A stretch of 64,000 nt of DNA from Labrenzia sp. DG1229 (GTDB taxonomy: Bacteria; Pseudomonadota; Alphaproteobacteria; Rhizobiales; Stappiaceae). The notes under the pieces were generated by a model. That model saw nothing but the letters and a program-made list of their open reading frames with translations. It was not told the DNA's origin and did no database searches. Below, piece after piece: positions 29,121 to 40,623 of this stretch (positions within the stretch are counted from its first letter, which is position 1; the number at the start of each line of letters is the position of its first letter). A program made the translations under genes and the position numbers. Where the stretch lies: contig NZ_AYYG01000075.1 of the NCBI RefSeq assembly GCF_000521215.1, positions 1 through 64,000 on the forward strand. Direction: 5' to 3'.

Positions 29121-29963
29121 CTAGACCGAATCTCCGGTGTCGGCCTTGAAACCCTTGAATTTCGTTAGAATTTCGGCAGCTGTTTCCTCCACCGAACGGC
29201 GCGTCACGTCAATCAGCGGCCAGCCGTTTTCCGAACAGAGCCGGCGGGTCATATTGATTTCCTGCGAAATTTCCTTCCGGTCGACATAAGTGTCATTGTA
29301 ACCCTCGGAATTCAACGACAGAACCCTGTTGCGCCTGATCTGCTGAATGCGCTCGACAGATGCGATCAGACCGACAATCATCGGTCCCTTCAGAGCTTTC
29401 ACATGATCCGGCAGGGGAATGCCGGGAACCAATGGAACATTTGCAGCCTTGATGCCACGATTGGCCAGATAGATGCAGGTCGGCGTCTTGGATGTTCTGG
29501 AAATGCCGATCAGAACAATATCAGCTGATTCCAGATCGTCCCAGACCTGACCGTCATCATGCAACATCGTGTAGTTGAGGGCCTCCATTCGCCGGAAATA
29601 TTCGGCGTCGAGTTCATGCTGCCCGCCGACTCGATGTGTTTGCGTCACGTTGAGGTAGGATTGGAACACGGCGAAGACCGGATCCAGGATATTGACGAAG
29701 GGAATACCAAGTTCCCGGCATTTCCTTTCCAACCGACTGGCGATTTCGTCATCCACCAGCGTGTAAAGGACGATACCCGGCGCGTTTTCAATTTCTGAAA
29801 TAACCCGGTCCAGCTGCTTCGACGAGCGGACGAGCGGATAAACATGCTCTATTTCCTGCACGTTTTCATATTGAACAGTCGCGGCACGGGCGACCGTCAT
29901 CAGGGTTTCACCGGTCGAGTCGGACACGAGATGCAGATGAAAATAGTGTCTCGACTTGTTCAC
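29121..29963 (-). CDS. ppsR: Pyruvate, water dikinase regulatory protein (bifunctional kinase/pyrophosphorylase)
   Basis: DUF299-family enzyme: ADP-dependent kinase and Pi-dependent pyrophosphorylase that switches PEP synthetase or pyruvate phosphate dikinase off and on. The N-terminus [14 protein letters not shown] and the P-loop GISRTSKT (residues 153-160) are diagnostic. 280 residues. It begins the minus-strand run leading to dnaQ and flanks the predicted replication origin; a DUF299 gene beside hemE is a conserved feature of alphaproteobacterial origins. Confidence 0.92.
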
Positions 29964-29969
29964 GGTGTC

Positions 29970-30385
29970 ATCCCCAGGGCTGTTGAAGAATTGGGAGTTA
30001 AGTCCCAGATTGAGTGCGTAGCACGAAGTTTATGCCCGCTCAGCAATATTTGTTAACAATCCTTTAACGCGCGGAAACTGACTCCGAAACGATTGTGCAT
30101 CGATGTGGATTCACAGTCAGACTGTGACATATCGACAGATTTTCCACCTGCTCGCAATTCCTTAACGAAAGGTAAACACGCTTCCAAGTAGCTGGAATCA
30201 ATTCATAAATCAGTTTATTGACTCTTGGGGAAGGATTCTTTCGTTATCTGTGTGTGATTTATCCCGTCAGGAATTTTGCGCAAACGCATTGTGGATAGAA
30301 AATGATCCCTGTAATCCACGCGCAATAAATAAAAACAGATTCAAAATAAGAATCTTGTTTGGTTTGAAATGTGGGAAAGGCGCTA
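29970..30385. other. oriC: Probable chromosomal replication origin (oriC)
   Basis: The gap between ppsR and hemE is where Caulobacter, Rickettsia and rhizobia carry oriC. It contains a perfect CtrA site, TTAA-N7-TTAA (30053-30067), and a near match TTAA-N7-TAAA (30162-30176). DnaA-box-like 9-mers are TGTGGATAG (30290-30298, 8 of 9), TGTGGATTC (30104-30112), TTTTCCACC (30140-30148) and TAATCCACG (30312-30320), each 7 of 9. Seven GANTC (CcrM) sites lie at 30080, 30108, 30195, 30220, 30234, 30338 and 30350. A TCACAGT/ACTGTGA hairpin is at 30111-30127, and the flank from 30321 is AT-rich, suitable for unwinding. The function is inferred; no dnaA gene is in the window. Confidence 0.78.
30053..30067. 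promoter_or_regulatory. CtrA-binding site (TTAA-N7-TTAA)
   Basis: Exact full site for the response regulator CtrA, which in Caulobacter represses initiation at the origin. It lies inside the predicted oriC. A second, one-mismatch version is at 30162-30176. Confidence 0.65.
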
Positions 30386-30389
30386 CCTC

Positions 30390-31418
30390 ATGAAATCCCA
30401 AGATAGAGCCGTTATGCGGGTTCTCTCAGGAGAAAAGATCTGGCCGCCTCCCATCTGGATGATGCGTCAGGCCGGACGGTATCTTCCCGAATACCGGGAA
30501 GTCCGGAAGAACGCTTCCAACTTCCTGGACTTCTGCTACTCCCCGGATCTTGCAACTGAAGTCACACTTCAACCGATCCGCCGCTATGGTTTTGACGCAA
30601 GTATTCTGTTTTCAGATATCTTCGTCGTTCCCGATGCGATCGGATACCCTGTTCGTTTTGAAGAAGGACGTGGTCCGGTTCTGGAACCGCTGTCTTCAGA
30701 CCTTCTTGACCGTCTTGAACAGGAACAGGCCGAGGATCACCTAAAACCGGTCATGGAGACAGTTTCGCGTCTTCGGGCGGAACTCCCTAGCGAAACAACG
30801 CTGCTTGGCTTCTGTGGAGCTCCCTGGACCGTTGCCTGTTATTCCGTTGCCGGGCACACGACGCAGGATCAGGTTGCCGCGCGTGTCGGGACTTATCGTG
30901 ACCCGGATCTCATGCAAAGGTTTGTCGATCAACTTGTCACCGCGTCCATCAGATATCTGGTCCGCCAGCTGGATGCCGGCGCCGATGCGGTGCAGATATT
31001 CGACACCTGGGCCGGAGTTCTGGATGATGCCGGGTTCCGTCGCTGGTCGATCGAACCGACCAAAAAGATCGTTGACGGCGTGCGGGCCACCCGGCCGGAC
31101 GCAAAGATCATCGGATTTCCAAAGGCGTCTTCAGCAAGAATAATGACCTTCATCGAGGGAACCGGTGTTGACGCCGTCGGCTTTGACTGGACTGCACCTG
31201 ATCATCTTGCGCTCGACATCCAGAAAAGAGTTCCGATCCAGGGGAATCTCGACCCGATGCGGCTGGTTGCAGGCGGCAAGGCTCTTGAAGATGGTGTTGC
31301 CCATATTCTGAAAACATTTGACAAGGGACCCCTGATCTTCAATCTCGGGCATGGCGTCACGCCGGATGCGGATCCCGACAATGTCAAACGAATGGTCGAA
31401 CAGGTTCGGAGAGGCTGA
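30390..31418 (+). CDS. hemE: Uroporphyrinogen decarboxylase
   Basis: Converts uroporphyrinogen III to coproporphyrinogen III by removing four acetate carboxyls. Family signatures PIWMMRQAGRYLPEY and FCGAPWTVACY are present, with the catalytic aspartate in ILFSDIFVVPDA. Start at ATG 30390, nine bases after AAAGG; an upstream ATG at 30369 has no ribosome site. 342 residues. Followed at four bases by hemJ. Confidence 0.97.
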   Translation: MKSQDRAVMRVLSGEKIWPPPIWMMRQAGRYLPEYREVRKNASNFLDFCYSPDLATEVTLQPIRRYGFDASILFSDIFVVPDAIGYPVRFEEGRGPVLEPLSSDLLDRLEQEQAEDHLKPVMETVSRLRAELPSETTLLGFCGAPWTVACYSVAGHTTQDQVAARVGTYRDPDLMQRFVDQLVTASIRYLVRQLDAGADAVQIFDTWAGVLDDAGFRRWSIEPTKKIVDGVRATRPDAKIIGFPKASSARIMTFIEGTGVDAVGFDWTAPDHLALDIQKRVPIQGNLDPMRLVAGGKALEDGVAHILKTFDKGPLIFNLGHGVTPDADPDNVKRMVEQVRRG

Positions 31419-33484: not shown

Positions 33485-33500
33485 TGTTTCACGTGAATCC
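33485..33500. other. parS-like ParB site 1
   Basis: TGTTTCACGTGAATCC, two mismatches from the bacterial parS palindrome TGTTTCACGTGAAACA, with an intact central TTTCACGTGAA. It lies between rho and a GNAT gene. Confidence 0.65.
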
Positions 33501-33530
33501 GTCTGAACCTTTTGAATCGGAACCGTTCTG

Positions 33531-34106
33531 ATGACGCGGAATATTTTCATTGAGACCGACCGCCTGCGGCTACGTGCATGGGAGGACACAGACATTGGAC
33601 CATTCGCGGAGATTTGTGCAGATGCTGAGGTAATGCGGTATTTTCCCGATGTCATGACGCGAGAAAAATCCGAATATCTGGTTTCCAGGTGTATTGAAAA
33701 GCAAGACAAGGACGGTTTCTGTATGGCTCCCGTCGAGATCAAGGAAACAGGAGAGTTTCTCGGATTCGTCGGATTGAACCGGCCGGGTTATGCCGCACCG
33801 TTGCCGTTTGAACCCTGCGTCGAGATTGGCTGGCGGCTTAAAAAATCCTGTTGGGGCAAAGGATATGCAAGTGAGGCAGCGAATGCCTGGCTTCGATTCG
33901 GTTTTGAAACCATCGGGCTCGATGAGATTGTTGCATTTACAATCCCCGCCAATAGCCCCTCCAGGCGGGTCATGGATCGCATAGGCATGCAAAGGGACGT
34001 GGATGGAGACTTTCTACATCCGTCTTTGCCTGCCGATGATCCGGTCGCACCTCATGTCTTGTACAGGTTGTCAAAACAGGACTGGAATTCGCGGCAGCGT
34101 GTGTAG
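33531..34106 (+). CDS. GNAT family N-acetyltransferase
   Basis: A 191-residue acetyltransferase of the RimJ/RimL type: IFIETDRLRLRAWEDTDIGPF at the start, an acetyl-CoA loop around KKSCWGKGYASEAANAW, and NSPSRRVMDRIGM near the end. Substrate unknown. It is flanked by parS-like sites within the origin-proximal region. No obvious operon partner. Confidence 0.85.
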   Translation: MTRNIFIETDRLRLRAWEDTDIGPFAEICADAEVMRYFPDVMTREKSEYLVSRCIEKQDKDGFCMAPVEIKETGEFLGFVGLNRPGYAAPLPFEPCVEIGWRLKKSCWGKGYASEAANAWLRFGFETIGLDEIVAFTIPANSPSRRVMDRIGMQRDVDGDFLHPSLPADDPVAPHVLYRLSKQDWNSRQRV

Positions 34107-34118
34107 CGCCCGTCGGGC

Positions 34119-34134
34119 CGATTCACGTGAAACA
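34119..34134. other. parS-like ParB site 2
   Basis: CGATTCACGTGAAACA: two mismatches from TGTTTCACGTGAAACA, with the right arm perfect. Confidence 0.62.
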
Positions 34135-34346
34135 CAATGCGGTCGCCACAATAAGGCGTCACCGGCAGACGTGAATCGTCCAAACCAACGTAGATTCGCT
34201 TCCGTACCAACAGGGTGACAGATCGGATCCTTGGTTTCAGTTCGACCGAACTTCATGGGTTTCCTAAGATTTTTCTGCACCAGAGATAAGCTCTTTAACT
34301 CGACCCGCGAATTTGGTTGACGCTGGGAGGCACTTGGTTGCCTGAT

Positions 34347-34362
34347 TGATTCACGTGAAACA
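34347..34362. other. parS-like ParB site 3
   Basis: TGATTCACGTGAAACA: a single mismatch from the consensus, at position 3. Confidence 0.75.
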
Positions 34363-34591
34363 CAAGCACGGCGTTTCACATTTGTCCTTCACGTCAGGAC
34401 CTGCATTTGATTCGTCTGCGGAACATTAATCAAACGGTGGTACGGCGGACCGGCTTATCGGTTCGAGGGAAGAACTGCCTCGCCGTTTTGGAGCATCTTC
34501 CCGTATTCGCGCCTGTTTGCTAAAGAGGCGAACTCACACATTGCAGTTGGGAGTATTCCCGCTTTCCCAAAACTCTCCTGGAAAGAAAACC

Positions 34592-35941
34592 ATGGCAGAA
34601 ACAATCTTTGCACTTTCAAGCGGCGCTGTGCCTTCGGGAGTTGCTGTCATTCGTGTTTCGGGTCGCGAAACCAAAAAGGTTCTGGAAAATATCTGCGGAC
34701 AGGTTCCGGACGCCCGAAAGGCAACCGTGACCAGGCTGAAAGCTCCGGAAACCGGAGATGTTCTCGATGAAGCACTCGTCCTGTTTTTCGAAGGTCCGAG
34801 GAGTTTTACCGGTGAAGACGTTGCTGAACTTCACTGCCATGGTGGAAGGGCAGTTGTCGGCAAGGTGCTCAGTGAGCTGGGAAAGTTTGAAAACTGCAGG
34901 CCTGCGGAAGCAGGAGAGTTTACGCGACGCGCTTTTTATCATGGCCGAATGGACCTCACGGAAGTTGAGGGCCTTGCTGATCTGATCGCGGCTGAAACGG
35001 AGAGCCAGCGGAAACAGGCTGTCCGGCAGATGGGCGGTGCGCTCGGTGGGCTTTATGAAGGCTGGCGCACAAGGCTTATCCATATGCGCGCGATGATCGA
35101 GGCCGATTTCGACTTTGCCGATGAAGAGGATGTGCCTGGGAGCGTCGCAGATGAGGTCTGGTCGGAAGCCGCGTCTCTCCATGGCGAGATCTCAGATCAT
35201 CTGGACAAGTCGAAAAGCGGAGAACGTCTGCGTTCAGGCTTGCAAGTCGTCCTCATGGGTGCACCGAATGCCGGCAAGTCCAGTTTGCTGAACGCTATTG
35301 CCGGTCGGGATGTTGCCATTGTCACGGAGGAAGCAGGTACGACGCGAGACGTCATCGAAGTGCATCTTGATCTGGGAGGATATCCACTCACGCTGGTGGA
35401 TACGGCTGGTCTTCGGGAATCGGGGGGACTTGTTGAAAGGGAGGGGATCCGCAGGGCACAGGCCAAAGGACAGGAAGCCGATCTGATCCTTTGGGCGATG
35501 GAACTGAATGGTGTGCCTTATGATGGTTCTGCCGGGGGTCTTCCGGAGGAGTTAAGGGAAACGATCCCGCTCTGGATCGTTCGAACGAAAAGCGATCTTG
35601 TGACTCTTCCGGAACAAGACTCTTCCGGAACAATCAAGGAAATCTCTTGCTCGGACAGAAATGAAGACGGCGTTAAGTCGCTAATCAGTGCCCTGACATG
35701 TTTTGCCGAAGAAACGATTTCCCTCGGCGAAGCACCTCTTGCCACACGTGAACGGCACCGGCATTACCTGTCAAATTGTCTGACGGGTTTGAAAACGGCG
35801 GTGGATGCCAACCATCATCCGACGGAATTGAGGGCGGAAGACCTGCGGCGTGCTGCTGATGCACTTGGTCGGATCACTGGCCGAATTGACGTGGACGATC
35901 TCCTGGATGTTATCTTCCGCGACTTCTGTATTGGCAAATGA
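34592..35941 (+). CDS. mnmE: tRNA uridine-5-carboxymethylaminomethyl modification GTPase
   Basis: With MnmG it adds the carboxymethylaminomethyl group to U34 of several tRNAs. The 449-residue protein has the N-terminal formyl-THF-binding domain (TIFALSSGAVPSGVAVIRVSG), a GTPase domain with GAPNAGKSSL, EAGTTRD and DTAGLRE, and the C-terminal FCIGK with the conserved cysteine. Start at ATG 34592 after GGAAAG. Confidence 0.97.
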   Translation: MAETIFALSSGAVPSGVAVIRVSGRETKKVLENICGQVPDARKATVTRLKAPETGDVLDEALVLFFEGPRSFTGEDVAELHCHGGRAVVGKVLSELGKFENCRPAEAGEFTRRAFYHGRMDLTEVEGLADLIAAETESQRKQAVRQMGGALGGLYEGWRTRLIHMRAMIEADFDFADEEDVPGSVADEVWSEAASLHGEISDHLDKSKSGERLRSGLQVVLMGAPNAGKSSLLNAIAGRDVAIVTEEAGTTRDVIEVHLDLGGYPLTLVDTAGLRESGGLVEREGIRRAQAKGQEADLILWAMELNGVPYDGSAGGLPEELRETIPLWIVRTKSDLVTLPEQDSSGTIKEISCSDRNEDGVKSLISALTCFAEETISLGEAPLATRERHRHYLSNCLTGLKTAVDANHHPTELRAEDLRRAADALGRITGRIDVDDLLDVIFRDFCIGK

Positions 35942-35957
35942 TGTTTCACGTGAATCA
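35942..35957. other. parS-like ParB site 4
   Basis: TGTTTCACGTGAATCA, one mismatch from consensus, immediately after the mnmE stop codon. Confidence 0.75.
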
Positions 35958-35990
35958 AGTCCAACCAAGGATCGATTCTGTACCGGAACA

Positions 35991-36006
35991 TGTTTCACGT
36001 GAATCA
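35991..36006. other. parS-like ParB site 5
   Basis: TGTTTCACGTGAATCA, identical to site 4 and 49 bases from it, in the mnmE-mnmG gap. The remaining 220 bases before mnmG show no gene. Confidence 0.75.
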
Positions 36007-36226
36007 TGCGCTCCAAAGTCCACAATCCTGGAGTTGATAGAACTTCAAGGATTCGTCCATTCGAATTCCACTTTGACCCAGATGTCGTCTCGCATTATAA
36101 CGACGCACAGGAACTGCCGGTTTAGACGGCATATGATAGTCTGGCGTGATGCCGGCGACCGATCCCTGAAAATGATCTGGATGTTACCGGGTGCTTGTCT
36201 GAAGTGCCTGTGTGGACGGTGAGACT

Positions 36227-38113
36227 ATGAGTGATCAGAAACTGAATTTCGATGTTGTGGTGATTGGCGGCGGTCATGCAGGCTGTGAAGCAGCTGCAGC
36301 CTCCGCGCGCGCTGGTGCTTCGACCGCACTCGTTACCCACAAGTTCGAAACGATCGGAGTGATGTCCTGCAACCCGGCGATAGGCGGTCTTGGCAAGGGG
36401 CATCTGGTTCGCGAGATAGATGCACTTGACGGTCTGATGGGCCGCGTCGCGGATCAGGGTGGCATTCAGTTCCGCATGCTCAACCGGCGTAAAGGTCCGG
36501 CCGTCCGGGGTCCGCGTGCGCAGGCAGACCGCAGACTTTACCGTGAAGCCATGCAGCGCGAGATTGCCGGCATCGAAAATCTGACAGTTGTCGAAGGCGA
36601 GGCCCACAAGGTCCGCTTTACGGGTGAAGGACCAGACAGGCCCGTTTCGGGGATTGATCTTGCCGACGGACGCATAGTGTCCTGCGAGGCAGTCGTACTG
36701 ACCAGCGGGACTTTCCTGCGCGGGCTTATTCATATCGGCGACCGGAAGATACCGGCAGGACGTTCGGGCGAGGCACCCGCTCTGGGGCTGTCGGCCTCCC
36801 TTGAGGAGATCGGCTTTGAACTCGGGCGTCTCAAGACCGGTACACCGGCGCGACTTGATGGTCGAACAATCCACTGGGATCGCCTGGAGGAGCAGCCTGG
36901 AGATGACGATCCGGTTCCGTTTTCAACATTGACCGACAGGATCGAAACCCCACAGGTTCCGTGCCATATCACCCGAACCACTCCTGAGACCCATAAAATC
37001 ATTCAGGACAATCTTTCCCGTTCAGCCATGTATTCAGGGGAGATAAAAGGACGGGGGCCGCGATACTGTCCTTCGATCGAGGACAAGATAGTTCGATTCG
37101 GCGAAAGAGACGGGCATCAGATCTTCCTTGAACCGGAGGGACTTGATGATCACACCGTCTATCCCAACGGCATATCGACATCACTTCCAGAAGACGCGCA
37201 ACTCGCATTTTTGAAAACCATTCCAGGTCTTGAAGACGTGACGGTTATTCAGCCTGGTTACGCGATCGAGTACGATCATGTGGATCCGCGTGAGCTTCGT
37301 CCGACACTAGAGGCGAAACGCTGCCCGGGGCTTTATCTCGCAGGTCAGATCAATGGAACGACAGGGTATGAAGAAGCAGGGGCCCAGGGGCTTGTTGCCG
37401 GTGTCAATGCCGCGTTTCAGACAGCAGGCAAGGAACCCTTTGTCGTAGACCGGTCGCAGGGATACATCGGTGTGATGATTGACGATCTTGTGACGAGAGG
37501 CATTACAGAACCGTATCGCATGTTCACGTCGAGGGCGGAATACCGTTTGTCGCTGCGGGCAGACAACGCGGACCAGCGATTGACTCCACTCGGTGTGGAA
37601 AGGGATTTTGTATCCGATACCAGACGTCTGGCATTTGACACCAAGATGGCGAAAATTGAGCAGGCACGCGACCTTCTTGAAACCCTTTCGGTGACGCCTT
37701 CGGAAGCGCGGAAAAAAGGTTTGCCCGTGAATCAGGACGGTATTCGTCGGTCTGCCTTCGATCTGCTGTCCTACCCCAATGTGACCTACGAGATGCTCAC
37801 AACGATCTGGCCGGAGCTTGGTGCGGTTGACCAGGGGATTGCGGAGCAGGTGGCGACTGATGCCCTCTACGCCGTATACCTCGACAGGCAGATGGCGGAT
37901 ATCGAAGCCCTGAAGCGCGACGAAGCCGTGCGAATCCCCGATGATTTCGACTACGAAGCGATTGTCGGATTGTCCAACGAGGTTAAGCAGAAGCTGATCG
38001 ATGTTGGGCCAGCAACTCTCGGACATGCGTCACGAATGGACGGCATTACACCAGCTGCGCTGACTTTGATCCTGTCCCATCTCAAGCGCAGTTCCCGCAA
38101 GGGTGCCGCTTGA
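36227..38113 (+). CDS. mnmG: tRNA uridine-5-carboxymethylaminomethyl modification enzyme MnmG
   Basis: FAD enzyme partnering MnmE in wobble-uridine modification. FAD-binding [39 protein letters not shown] and the C-terminal [12 protein letters not shown] motif are seen. 628 residues, start ATG 36227. Its stop overlaps the rsmG start by one base. Confidence 0.98.
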
Positions 38114-38769
38114 TGGGGCGTCCCGTGGTGTTGAATGACACTGGACAAATTGTGCATAAGTATGGGGATGTTTCACGTGAAACGTTGGATAGACTCCAGA
38201 TTTACGTGGATCTTGTGCTGAAGTGGCAGCCTGCGCAAAATCTTATCGCACCGTCCACTATCGCAGAAATCTGGACCCGGCATGTGGCCGATAGTCTTCA
38301 GACCCAGTGGCTTGATCCTGCTGCCCGCGTATGGGTGGATATCGGCAGCGGAGGAGGTTTTCCGGGTATTGTCACCGCGATCCTGCTGGCAGACGAACCG
38401 GACGCGCATGTGCATCTGATCGAAAGCAATCAGCGCAAGGCTGCGTTTCTGCGCACCGCACTCCGGGAAACGGGCTCGACAGGTACTGTCCATCCGGGGC
38501 GTATCGAATCGGTGGCGAAAAAATGGGGACATGGCCCGGTCGATTCCATTTCGGCACGTGCCCTGGCCTCTCTCGACCTGCTTTTCCGCTTGTCTGAACC
38601 GTTTACAGCGGCAGGTGCGGGTGCTGTTTTCCACAAAGGTCAGGATTTTCAGAGAGAAGTTAACGAAGCCTCTGACGCTTGGAACTTCGATCTGGTAGAA
38701 AAGGTAAGTCTTGTAGATCCTGTGAGCCGGATGCTTGTTTTCTCAAATATTTCAGCCCGGTCGGACTAA
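38113..38769 (+). CDS. rsmG: 16S rRNA (guanine(527)-N7)-methyltransferase
   Basis: Methylates G527 of 16S rRNA; loss gives low-level streptomycin resistance. The SAM-binding motif WVDIGSGGGFPGIV and LIESNQRKAAFLR are clear. 218 residues starting at ATG 38113, which shares a base with the mnmG stop. The codons for DVSRET (residues 19-24) contain a parS-like site. Confidence 0.95.
   Translation: MGRPVVLNDTGQIVHKYGDVSRETLDRLQIYVDLVLKWQPAQNLIAPSTIAEIWTRHVADSLQTQWLDPAARVWVDIGSGGGFPGIVTAILLADEPDAHVHLIESNQRKAAFLRTALRETGSTGTVHPGRIESVAKKWGHGPVDSISARALASLDLLFRLSEPFTAAGAGAVFHKGQDFQREVNEASDAWNFDLVEKVSLVDPVSRMLVFSNISARSD
38169..38184. other. parS-like ParB site 6, inside rsmG
   Basis: TGTTTCACGTGAAACG has a perfect central 14-mer and one mismatch at the last base. 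It is read in-frame as part of the codons for D-V-S-R-E-T of RsmG, so the DNA serves both as coding sequence and probable centromere. Confidence 0.78.
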
Positions 38770-38782
38770 CCAGGAAAGTGTC

Positions 38783-39613
38783 ATGGCAATGAGCATGCTT
38801 CCCGAAACACCTCGCGTCCTCGCGCTCGCGAACCAGAAAGGCGGAGTGGGAAAGACCACGACTGCCATCAACCTCGGCACGGCGCTGGCAGCGATCGGGG
38901 AAAAGGTTCTGGTCATCGATCTCGATCCCCAGGGCAATGCGTCTACCGGTCTGGGCATTGAACATCGCGACCGCGGGTTGTCTACCTACGAAGTCCTGAG
39001 CGGAGACTGCTCGATGGCTGAGGCTGTGCGGGAAACTGCGGTGCAACGGCTTTGGGTGGCTCCCTCGACGATGGATCTGCTCGGCCTTGAGCTTGAGATT
39101 GCATCGACCAGTGACCGCGCCTTCCGTCTTCGCAATGCGATCGAGAACCTGACGCGCTCGCGTCTGTTCCAGGAAGTTGGCTTCACCTATGTCCTGGTCG
39201 ATTGCCCACCGTCGCTCAATCTTCTGACGATCAATGCACTTTCGGCATCGCATTCCATTCTTGTGCCCCTTCAGTGTGAGTTCTTTGCGCTGGAAGGTCT
39301 TAGCCAATTGCTCAGCACTGTTGAGCAGGTCAGGGACGCGCTGAATTCCGAACTCAGCATTCATGGCATCGTGCTCACCATGTATGACAGCCGTAACAAT
39401 CTTTCCAGCCAGGTTGTTGCCGATGTTCGCGAAACAATGGGTGATGCGGTGTATGAGACAATCATTCCGCGGAACGTTCGCGTATCCGAAGCACCATCTT
39501 ATGGCAAGCCGGCGCTGCTGTATGATCTGAAATGCGCCGGAAGCCAGGCCTATCTGCGACTGGCGTCCGAAATCATTCAGCGGGAGCGTGAACTGCGTCG
39601 CGTGGCTGCCTGA
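38783..39613 (+). CDS. parA: Chromosome partitioning ATPase ParA (Soj)
   Basis: Walker-type ATPase that moves ParB-parS complexes apart. The deviant P-loop KGGVGKT (residues 19-25), DLDPQGNASTGLG and DCPPSLNLLTINA are diagnostic. 276 residues from ATG 38783, preceded by AGGAAAG. Overlapping no gene, 13 bases after rsmG and 104 bases before parB. Confidence 0.97.
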   Translation: MAMSMLPETPRVLALANQKGGVGKTTTAINLGTALAAIGEKVLVIDLDPQGNASTGLGIEHRDRGLSTYEVLSGDCSMAEAVRETAVQRLWVAPSTMDLLGLELEIASTSDRAFRLRNAIENLTRSRLFQEVGFTYVLVDCPPSLNLLTINALSASHSILVPLQCEFFALEGLSQLLSTVEQVRDALNSELSIHGIVLTMYDSRNNLSSQVVADVRETMGDAVYETIIPRNVRVSEAPSYGKPALLYDLKCAGSQAYLRLASEIIQRERELRRVAA

Positions 39614-39717: not shown

Positions 39718-40623
39718 ATGGCTGACAAGGACGTCAAGAACAAGCGTTTGGGCAGAGGCCTGGCGGCTTTGATCGGAGATTCGGCTCCTGTGGTGGCGGC
39801 AACCCCTGAGAAAGTCGTTCGGGACAGCCGCAGAGTTCCTATTGAGCACCTTGAGCCAAATCCGCGCAATCCACGCAAGACATTTACGGAGAAGGATCTT
39901 GGTGATCTTGCTGAATCGCTGAAGGCGAAGGGAATCGTTCAACCGATTCTGGTGCGCCCGGCAGCCGGCAAAACCAATCGTTATGAGATTATTGCCGGTG
40001 AACGGCGCTGGAGGGCTGCGCAGCGGGCGGGGCTGCATGAAGCCCCGATTATCATTCGCGACGTTACCGATCAGGAAGCGCTCGAACTTGCGATTATCGA
40101 GAACGTGCAGCGTGCTGACCTCAACCCGATCGAAGAGGCAATGGGTTATGATCAGCTGACCGCTGAGTTCAAGTATAGCCAGGGCGAACTGGCGAAGGTT
40201 ATCGGCAAGAGCCGCAGCCATGTCGCCAACACGATGCGACTTCTGAAACTTCCGAATTCCGTCAAGGATTACCTCGCCGAAGGCCTGCTGACGGCTGGCC
40301 ATGCGCGTGCGCTGATTACCGTTGATGATCCGGCCGCGCTCGCCGAACTGATTGTTGAGAAGGGCCTGACTGTTCGGGATGCTGAAAAGATTTCGCAGGA
40401 CCCGGCAGCCCTTGCGAAGCTGAAGGGCGAAAAGGCCCCAAGCGAAAAGCCCCAGAAGGATGCGGACACCAAGGCGCTTGAAAAGCGATTGACCGACACC
40501 TTGGGCCTGAAGGTGGTTGTTGGACACAAACCGGGAAAAGATTCCGGAGATCTCAAAATCAAGTACACCTCATTGGAGCAGCTTGACGAGATCTGCAAGA
40601 AGCTTGGTGTCGAAACACGCTAA
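39718..40623 (+). CDS. parB: Chromosome partitioning protein ParB (Spo0J)
   Basis: CTP-dependent DNA clamp that loads at parS and spreads. Seen are LGRGLAALIGD at the start, the CTP-binding GERRWRAAQRAG, the NIENVQRADLNPIEEA-type box (IIENVQRADLNPIEEA), the helix-turn-helix QGELAKVIGKSRSHVANTMR and a C-terminal dimerisation domain. 301 residues. Target sites lie in the same locus (33.5-38.2 kb). Converges on holA. Confidence 0.97.
   Translation: MADKDVKNKRLGRGLAALIGDSAPVVAATPEKVVRDSRRVPIEHLEPNPRNPRKTFTEKDLGDLAESLKAKGIVQPILVRPAAGKTNRYEIIAGERRWRAAQRAGLHEAPIIIRDVTDQEALELAIIENVQRADLNPIEEAMGYDQLTAEFKYSQGELAKVIGKSRSHVANTMRLLKLPNSVKDYLAEGLLTAGHARALITVDDPAALAELIVEKGLTVRDAEKISQDPAALAKLKGEKAPSEKPQKDADTKALEKRLTDTLGLKVVVGHKPGKDSGDLKIKYTSLEQLDEICKKLGVETR

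Follow-up and report, generated by a model that had tools for sequence, protein, structure and literature searches.

The ppsR-hemE gap of a Roseibium strain as the probable chromosomal replication origin, with predicted CtrA, CcrM and DnaA-type sites, and a second DnaA in most members of the genus

The stretch of DNA analysed here (the window) consists of 64,000 nucleotides of Labrenzia sp. DG1229, a marine bacterium treated with the genus Roseibium, and is part of contig C61 in a genome of 7.63 Mb distributed over 61 contigs. It carries a gap bordered by ppsR, which we take to be COG1806, and by hemE (Table 1). The ATG listed as the hemE start, at 30369, is absent from some relatives, so that the gene probably starts at the conserved position 30390 and the gap extends up to it. 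The GC content of the gap is 41.7%, vs. 56.3% for the window. The sequence 29964-30368 occurs once in the genome, in which no second copy was found at E ≤ 0.001. Downstream of hemE lie rho, mnmE and mnmG, while two ORFs recognised by eye as ParA-like and ParB-like are found at 38735-39613 and 39718-40623. Six parS-like sites, with at most two mismatches to TGTTTCACGTGAAACA, are present 3-8 kb from the gap, where 0.01 would be expected.

Table 1. Coordinates of the features at and around the ppsR-hemE gap (window positions; fractions of 39 refer to the usable Roseibium gaps)
Feature	Position	Strand	Remarks
ppsR, left border gene	29121..29963	-	NF003742, 338 bits
Candidate oriC, ppsR-hemE gap	29964..30389		GC-skew turn, conserved blocks, single copy
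CtrA-type site 1, TTAA-N7-TTAA, exact	30053..30067		≤1 mismatch in 30/39
GANTC, lineage-specific	30080..30084		7/39
DnaA-box-like GAATCCACA	30104..30112	-	some relatives TAATCCACA or TGATCCACA; ≤2 mismatches in 34/39
GANTC, partly conserved	30108..30112		18/39
DnaA-box-like ATATCGACA	30129..30137	+	≤2 mismatches in 20/39
DnaA-box-like TTTTCCACC	30140..30148	+	≤2 mismatches in 32/39
CtrA-type site 2, TTAA-N7-TAAA(C), one mismatch	30162..30176		≤1 mismatch in 38/39
GANTC, lineage-specific	30195..30199		4/39
CcrM site GACTC	30220..30224		kept in 38/39 Roseibium, 0/5 other family gaps at aligned place
TCCCCA hexamer	30226..30231	-	within conserved block 30215-30231
GANTC, partly conserved	30234..30238		13/39
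Best DnaA-like 9-mer, TGTGGATAG / CTATCCACA	30290..30298	-	best match to TTATCCACA, one mismatch; ≤1 mismatch in 26/39
DnaA-box-like TAATCCACG	30312..30320	+	≤2 mismatches in 35/39; block 30311-30319 mean column identity 0.98
A+T-rich strip	30321..30366		next to 30312 box; possible unwinding element, hemE promoter region, or both
CcrM site GATTC	30338..30342		GANTC kept in 39/39 genus, 5/5 family; N varies
CcrM site GAATC	30350..30354		kept at aligned place in 37/39 genus, 0/5 family
hemE, right border gene	30390..31418	+	TIGR01464, 380 bits; start taken from alignment
Six parS-like sites	33485..38184		starts 33485, 34119, 34347, 35942, 35991, 38169; upstream of ParA/ParB-like ORFs

As for the comparative material, hemE was found in 60 of the 61 genomes searched, that of the strain included. 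The Roseibium set (loci L006-L035 and L105-L114, our strain included) covered 40 of the 41 genomes of the genus and provided 39 usable gaps from 40 loci; locus L110, with no ppsR in its stretch, and genome G023, with its hemE match split in two, were left out. At the order level, 66 loci from other genera and families yielded 57 usable gaps, namely 5/5 within the family but outside the genus, and 52/61 from other loci, the latter 52 representing 37 other families; nine of the 66 lacked the expected ppsR-hemE gap, one of them (L227) being cut by a contig end. Sites were counted by script and compared with counts in shuffled sequences, which for the window were dinucleotide shuffles of its gap (405 bases). 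Since shuffling ignores the kinship of the genus members, counts at the order level give the fairer test.

GC skew changes sign at the gap. Within the window, it is -0.023 to the left of position 30160 and +0.034 to its right, with the cumulative minimum at 29409. In two near-complete relatives, G034 and G003, each sampled by 20 stretches of 20 kb, the two arms are of opposite sign, 10/10 samples being negative and 9/10 positive in G034 (the exception at 300 kb), vs. 10/11 negative and 9/9 positive in G003 (the exception at 5.5 Mb). The turn falls between samples ending at 4.200 and starting at 4.215 Mb in G034, with hemE at 4.208 Mb, and between samples ending at 954.0 and starting at 956.0 kb in G003, with hemE at 953.7-954.8 kb. 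In both chromosomes the reverse turn is close to the opposite side. A local reversal on the negative arm of G003 (C2, 5.50-5.52 Mb, +0.041) possibly reflects an inversion or an island.

The original prediction had listed, between ppsR and hemE, an exact TTAA-N7-TTAA site and a second one with one mismatch, several DnaA-box-like 9-mers, seven GANTC sites in about 275 bases and an A+T-rich flank. In a direct reading of 29400-31000 and by script, both CtrA-type sites were recovered, all seven GANTC sites are present, and the flank reaches 87% A+T at 30324-30353, the highest value among the 30-base windows tested. Concerning the 9-mers, six have at most two mismatches and the best is that at 30290-30298, while matches at 29968 (TCATCCCCA) and 30370 (TGTGGGAAAGG), each overlapping a likely ribosome-binding site (of ppsR and hemE, respectively), are not counted as DnaA boxes; these two conserved blocks were discounted on the strength of that probable alternative function.

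An exact CtrA-type site occurs in about 1% of the dinucleotide shuffles of the window gap, and two or more sites with at most one mismatch in 3.9%. All 39 Roseibium gaps have sites at this tolerance, with a mean of 2.15 vs. 0.30 in shuffles, as do the 5/5 gaps from other genera of the family. Of the two, the imperfect site 2 is the better kept (Table 1): it is exact in 5/39 Roseibium gaps and one step below the consensus in 33/39, and the aligned place is exact in 5/5 members of the other family genera, while site 1 is not kept at its aligned place in four of these five. Gaps with TAAA or CTAA as one half of site 2 mostly have TTAA as the other. Judging from these alignments, site 2 is probably older than site 1. 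In the other families, 17/52 gaps (13/37 families) have exact sites vs. 0.8 expected, and 29/52 (23/37 families) have sites with at most one mismatch vs. 8.7 expected; the remaining 23/52 gaps have none even at one mismatch. Nine of 19 exact sites fall 140-240 bases ahead of hemE, close to where Roseibium has its site 2 (-207), a grouping made post hoc.

Six DnaA-like 9-mers with at most two mismatches, the 29968 match among them, are reached in 0.2% of the shuffles of the window gap; the single box with at most one mismatch is reached in 10.8% and is not significant alone. In the Roseibium gaps, boxes with at most two mismatches average 8.05 vs. 1.41 in shuffles, and in the other families 40/52 gaps have a box with at most one mismatch, where 4.0 would be expected. 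A TCCCCA hexamer, presumably of the weak-box type, lies in a conserved block (Table 1). A DnaA-trio unwinding system (BUS) is described as a DnaA box, a spacer and a run of at least three trios (PMC8287927); with a pattern of our own, for which about 0.01 match is expected per gap, no such run was found in 39 genus, 5 family and 17 other gaps. IHF sites are not enriched in Roseibium (mean 0.87 at one mismatch or fewer vs. 0.69 in shuffles; exact in 1/39), whereas they are in 17 tested gaps of other families (0.88 vs. 0.40). Folded as single-stranded DNA, the gap has a z-score of -2.43, with 0/100 shuffles equally good; our guess is that inverted DnaA-type repeats contribute to this folding.

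The window holds 139 GANTC sites in total and, scanned in 10-base steps, has them at their densest over the 276 bases with these seven; seven are reached in 0.15% of 2000 shuffles of the 405-base gap (mean 1.90). Only three of them, at 30220, 30338 and 30350, are well conserved. At 30338, the middle base is T in 37 and A in 2 Roseibium gaps and T, C, A, A and C in the family gaps, with GA and TC constant, a pattern to be expected if selection acts on the methylation site as such. The mean number per gap is 4.72 in Roseibium vs. 1.86 in shuffles and 3.06 vs. 1.90 in the other families, while the five family gaps, with 2.8 vs. 1.8 (reached by 5.5% of shuffles), show no clear enrichment. The sites concentrate next to hemE. 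At least one lies within 90 bases of this gene in 39/39 Roseibium, 5/5 family and 44/52 other gaps, and in 31/37 families taken once, vs. 60%, 29%, 37% and 33%, respectively, of other 90-base windows in the same gaps; at least two are found in 39/39, 5/5, 20/52 and 14/37 families vs. 13%, 0%, 11% and 10%, the hemE start of the other families being extrapolated from the alignment, so that positions may be off by some codons. The two sites of this pair are 11-14 bases apart in the 39 genus gaps and 14-17 in the five family gaps. Their flanks also differ from those of other GANTC sites: of 30 hemE-proximal sites with sufficient flank, one per family, 77% have an A before them and 73% a T after them, as against 21% and 16% for 58 other sites. 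Within the A+T-rich strip, block 30330-30345 has a mean column identity of 0.97.

The corresponding regulators are encoded in the genome. CtrA was identified with NF045991 (425 bits, cut-off 350) and by its match to the CtrA structure 4qpj, and CcrM by the CcrMI structure 6pbd (550 bits), its score with the Caulobacter-specific NCBIfam model being 617, under the cut-off of 830. SciP and GcrA are also encoded. A second, weak match to the GcrA family (59 bits) was seen in a 302-aa open frame on contig C36, at 18.6 kb (L078).

A search for Bac_DnaA revealed two long DnaA proteins in the genome, at L002:952-2463 (C12:235 kb) and L001:955-2517 (C15:9 kb). A second full-length DnaA is present in 37/41 Roseibium genomes, and only one in G015, G016, G018 and G025. 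Across 149 genomes sampled from the order, counted at E ≤ 1e-20 and with the best 22 first-look candidates scored in some genomes, one DnaA was found among the candidates scored in the five genomes of other family genera and in 142/143 others, and two only in our strain and in G111. The latter (family f34) is the only one of the 143 genomes outside the family with two Bac_DnaA matches at this threshold. Named relatives identified through the second DnaA are mostly Roseibium or Labrenzia, the nearest among the matches listed being Roseibium album CECT 5095 (99%). Our literature search on a second dnaA in alphaproteobacteria and Roseibium, a search with subscription papers mostly outside its scope, found no report of this paralog, which is no proof of novelty.

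DnaA2 has all three DnaA Pfam domains (I, III and IV), scores 412 bits with TIGR00362 (cut-off 344) and is 57% identical to DnaA1. The recognition helix RDHTTVLHAVRKI, the Walker A motif G-x-G-K-T/S-H and the two Walker B aspartates are kept in 19/19 copies. In the domain comparison, for which L150 was counted as outgroup and 22 named loci were left out, DnaA1-DnaA2 identity is 73% in domain IV, 56% in domain III and 43% in domains I+II, and within the genus DnaA2 is far more variable than DnaA1 (domain III identity 68% vs. 91%). In a tree of 44 proteins, the 23 second DnaAs form one clade (100/100) on long branches beside the Roseibium DnaA1 clades; the fork joining the two, with a support of 85/90 and long-branch warnings, was drawn open. 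A third, very divergent DnaA was observed near the terminus of one genome (L150, G017:C1:4.91 Mb), 53% identical to DnaA1 and 43% to DnaA2.

In 6/6 near-complete Roseibium chromosomes, dnaA2 lies mid-arm, at 0.41-0.50 of the distance toward the terminus vs. 0.13-0.18 for dnaA1; the two genes are about 0.75-1.1 Mb apart, both far from the origin. The genes fabI, FAD oxidase and glyoxalase-8 are grouped both at second-DnaA loci and in four genomes without dnaA2. Glyoxalase-8 stands between FAD oxidase and dnaA2 in G030 and beyond dnaA2 in our strain. A single shared insertion of dnaA2 is likely, albeit short of proven, since gene order near dnaA2 differs. The absence of dnaA2 from G015 and G016 is probably a loss, given that their DnaA1 groups with that of dnaA2-bearing genomes; G018 and G025 were outside the tree. 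Near the second DnaAs, boxes with at most one mismatch were found at 3/20 loci (L145, L156 and L160; L151 is without upstream sequence). A TTAA-N7-YTAA site lies about 400 bases before the conserved dnaA2 start in 11/11 main-clade loci (L141 included), in an A+T-rich region, where CtrA-type sites average 1.09 vs. 0.42 in shuffles, the best shuffle also reaching 1.09. We read dnaA2 as a duplicated initiator under selection, possibly one with a regulatory role. At L141 (733-2595) of our strain, a caspase-domain (Peptidase_C14) protein with SH3 domains is encoded near dnaA2, with relatives in 18/41 other second-DnaA loci.

Two dnaA genes in one chromosome are known from Chlamydia. In Acidaminococcus fermentans, both of the two dnaA genes described are in the dnaA-dnaN cluster (PMC4403523), whereas the Roseibium pair is far apart. 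As for the origin itself, that of Caulobacter crescentus (Cori) is reported between hemE and COG1806, with DnaA boxes and CtrA sites (PMC1914354); CtrA binding (PMC4433202, PMC8959179) and an A+T-rich region (PMC8959179) are described as well. The bordering genes, the A+T-rich region and, as predictions, the DnaA and CtrA sites are shared by Roseibium. The Roseibium gap is therefore in the same place, ppsR being equated with COG1806 as above. Differences also exist: Cori has five CtrA sites and an IHF site, vs. two CtrA-type sites and no IHF enrichment in Roseibium, where CtrA-type site 2 is one mismatch off in 33/39 gaps and most genomes have a second DnaA. The number of IHF sites is reported to differ among hemE-type origins, and those of Rickettsia and Wolbachia have, as here, a hemE border and predicted DnaA and CtrA sites, together with predicted IHF sites and, in Wolbachia, COG1253 in place of COG1806 (PMC1914354).

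Taken with the skew turn in the window and in two relatives, with the parS-like sites nearby and with the sites kept in relatives, the ppsR-hemE gap is, with a probability of about 0.97, the chromosomal replication origin of this Roseibium. This agrees with the original prediction of oriC at this place, for which GC skew and conservation in relatives had been named as checks: the minus-to-plus turn is at the gap in the window, in G034 and in G003, and sites of the predicted kinds are kept in relatives. In a working model that we consider quite likely, built from motifs and encoded proteins, DnaA would assemble on a row of boxes at 30104-30320, weak for the most part, and probably melt the A+T-rich strip. 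Phosphorylated CtrA would sit on the two TTAA-N7-TTAA-type sites, site 2 being situated amid the DnaA boxes, and would keep one cell type or phase from initiating, in the manner of Caulobacter. The three conserved GANTC sites, of which two fall within the A+T-rich strip beside hemE, would be methylated by CcrM. The passing fork would leave these sites hemimethylated. This state could label an origin that has just fired, or it could time the hemE promoter by way of GcrA.

Many bacteria have their origin at dnaA. If that held here, the hemE gap would be an ancestral relic, and Ochrobactrum anthropi has been suggested to carry candidate origins at both loci (PMC4403523); with dnaA1 at 333-566 kb from hemE in 6/6 near-complete chromosomes compared, skew turns at hemE and, in the single genome examined, no DnaA box upstream of dnaA1 at one mismatch or fewer, we regard this as extremely improbable. 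The part played by CtrA calls for more caution. The idea of a direct block of the origin by this protein comes largely from Caulobacter. Two other alphaproteobacteria, Sinorhizobium meliloti and Brucella abortus, are in the same order as Roseibium. The S. meliloti origin is reported to lack CtrA motifs and binding, any CtrA effect there being thought indirect (PMC4433202), and CtrA is reported not to bind that of B. abortus (PMC2877005). Caulobacter-type control, which the original prediction had assigned to this origin, is for this reason not to be assumed: the conserved CtrA-type sites and the encoded regulators speak for it, on the basis of sequence and gene content. An origin without direct CtrA control, the TTAA-type sites serving promoters (of hemE, ppsR or a small RNA) or being leftovers, would also fit the 23/52 gaps of other families that have no CtrA site, and the Caulobacter origin has an RNA gene presumably activated by CtrA (PMC8959179). 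We find this reading unlikely all the same, as site 2 stands mid-gap and is kept to the extent given above in the genus and the family, the exact sites of the other families far exceed expectation, and no known RNA was matched in the region at E ≤ 1 in Rfam, which may not include an origin RNA of the Caulobacter kind. Direct control of the origin by CtrA would thus be the likely case.

The GANTC pair and the A+T-rich strip are more evenly contested. They may form an unwinding element, the hemE promoter, or both. That they are a hemE promoter controlled by GcrA and CcrM, and not an unwinding element, has a chance somewhat below even: the pair is 15-31 bases ahead of the hemE ORF start as listed, a TAGAAT in relatives resembles a -10 element, and GcrA is reported to prefer promoters with methylated GANTC (PMC8116508). 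A consensus search of the gap returned one sigma-70-like promoter, on the strand opposite hemE (0.6 expected), and none on the hemE strand, where the consensus may miss GcrA-type promoters. Promoter and unwinding element can also coincide, and hemE transcription is reported as important for Caulobacter replication (PMC8959179).

Dam sites occur in the unwinding repeats of Escherichia coli. According to a speculative and rather doubtful scheme, a single hemE-type origin would be served by two DnaAs, the ordinary one and a fast-evolving paralog with the ATPase motifs and recognition helix retained but domains I-III changed; the two would compete or alternate at shared boxes, gated by CtrA. For CcrM, the GANTC pair of the A+T-rich strip would be what those Dam sites are for Dam, making melting methylation-sensitive, perhaps order-wide. 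Hyphomonas neptunium belongs to a different order from Roseibium. In this species, the CtrA binding seen by ChIP-seq adjoins the origin, the bound site being beside it (PMC7200025).

Two aspects are surprising, namely the second DnaA and the retention of CtrA sites in an order in which the model species reportedly lack them. The CtrA-type site of Roseibium and the exact sites in 13/37 other families suggest that direct gating by CtrA may be widespread in the order and lost in some lineages. With two DnaAs in most Roseibium and one in 4/41 genomes, the genus also offers a natural experiment on the tolerance of initiator duplication.
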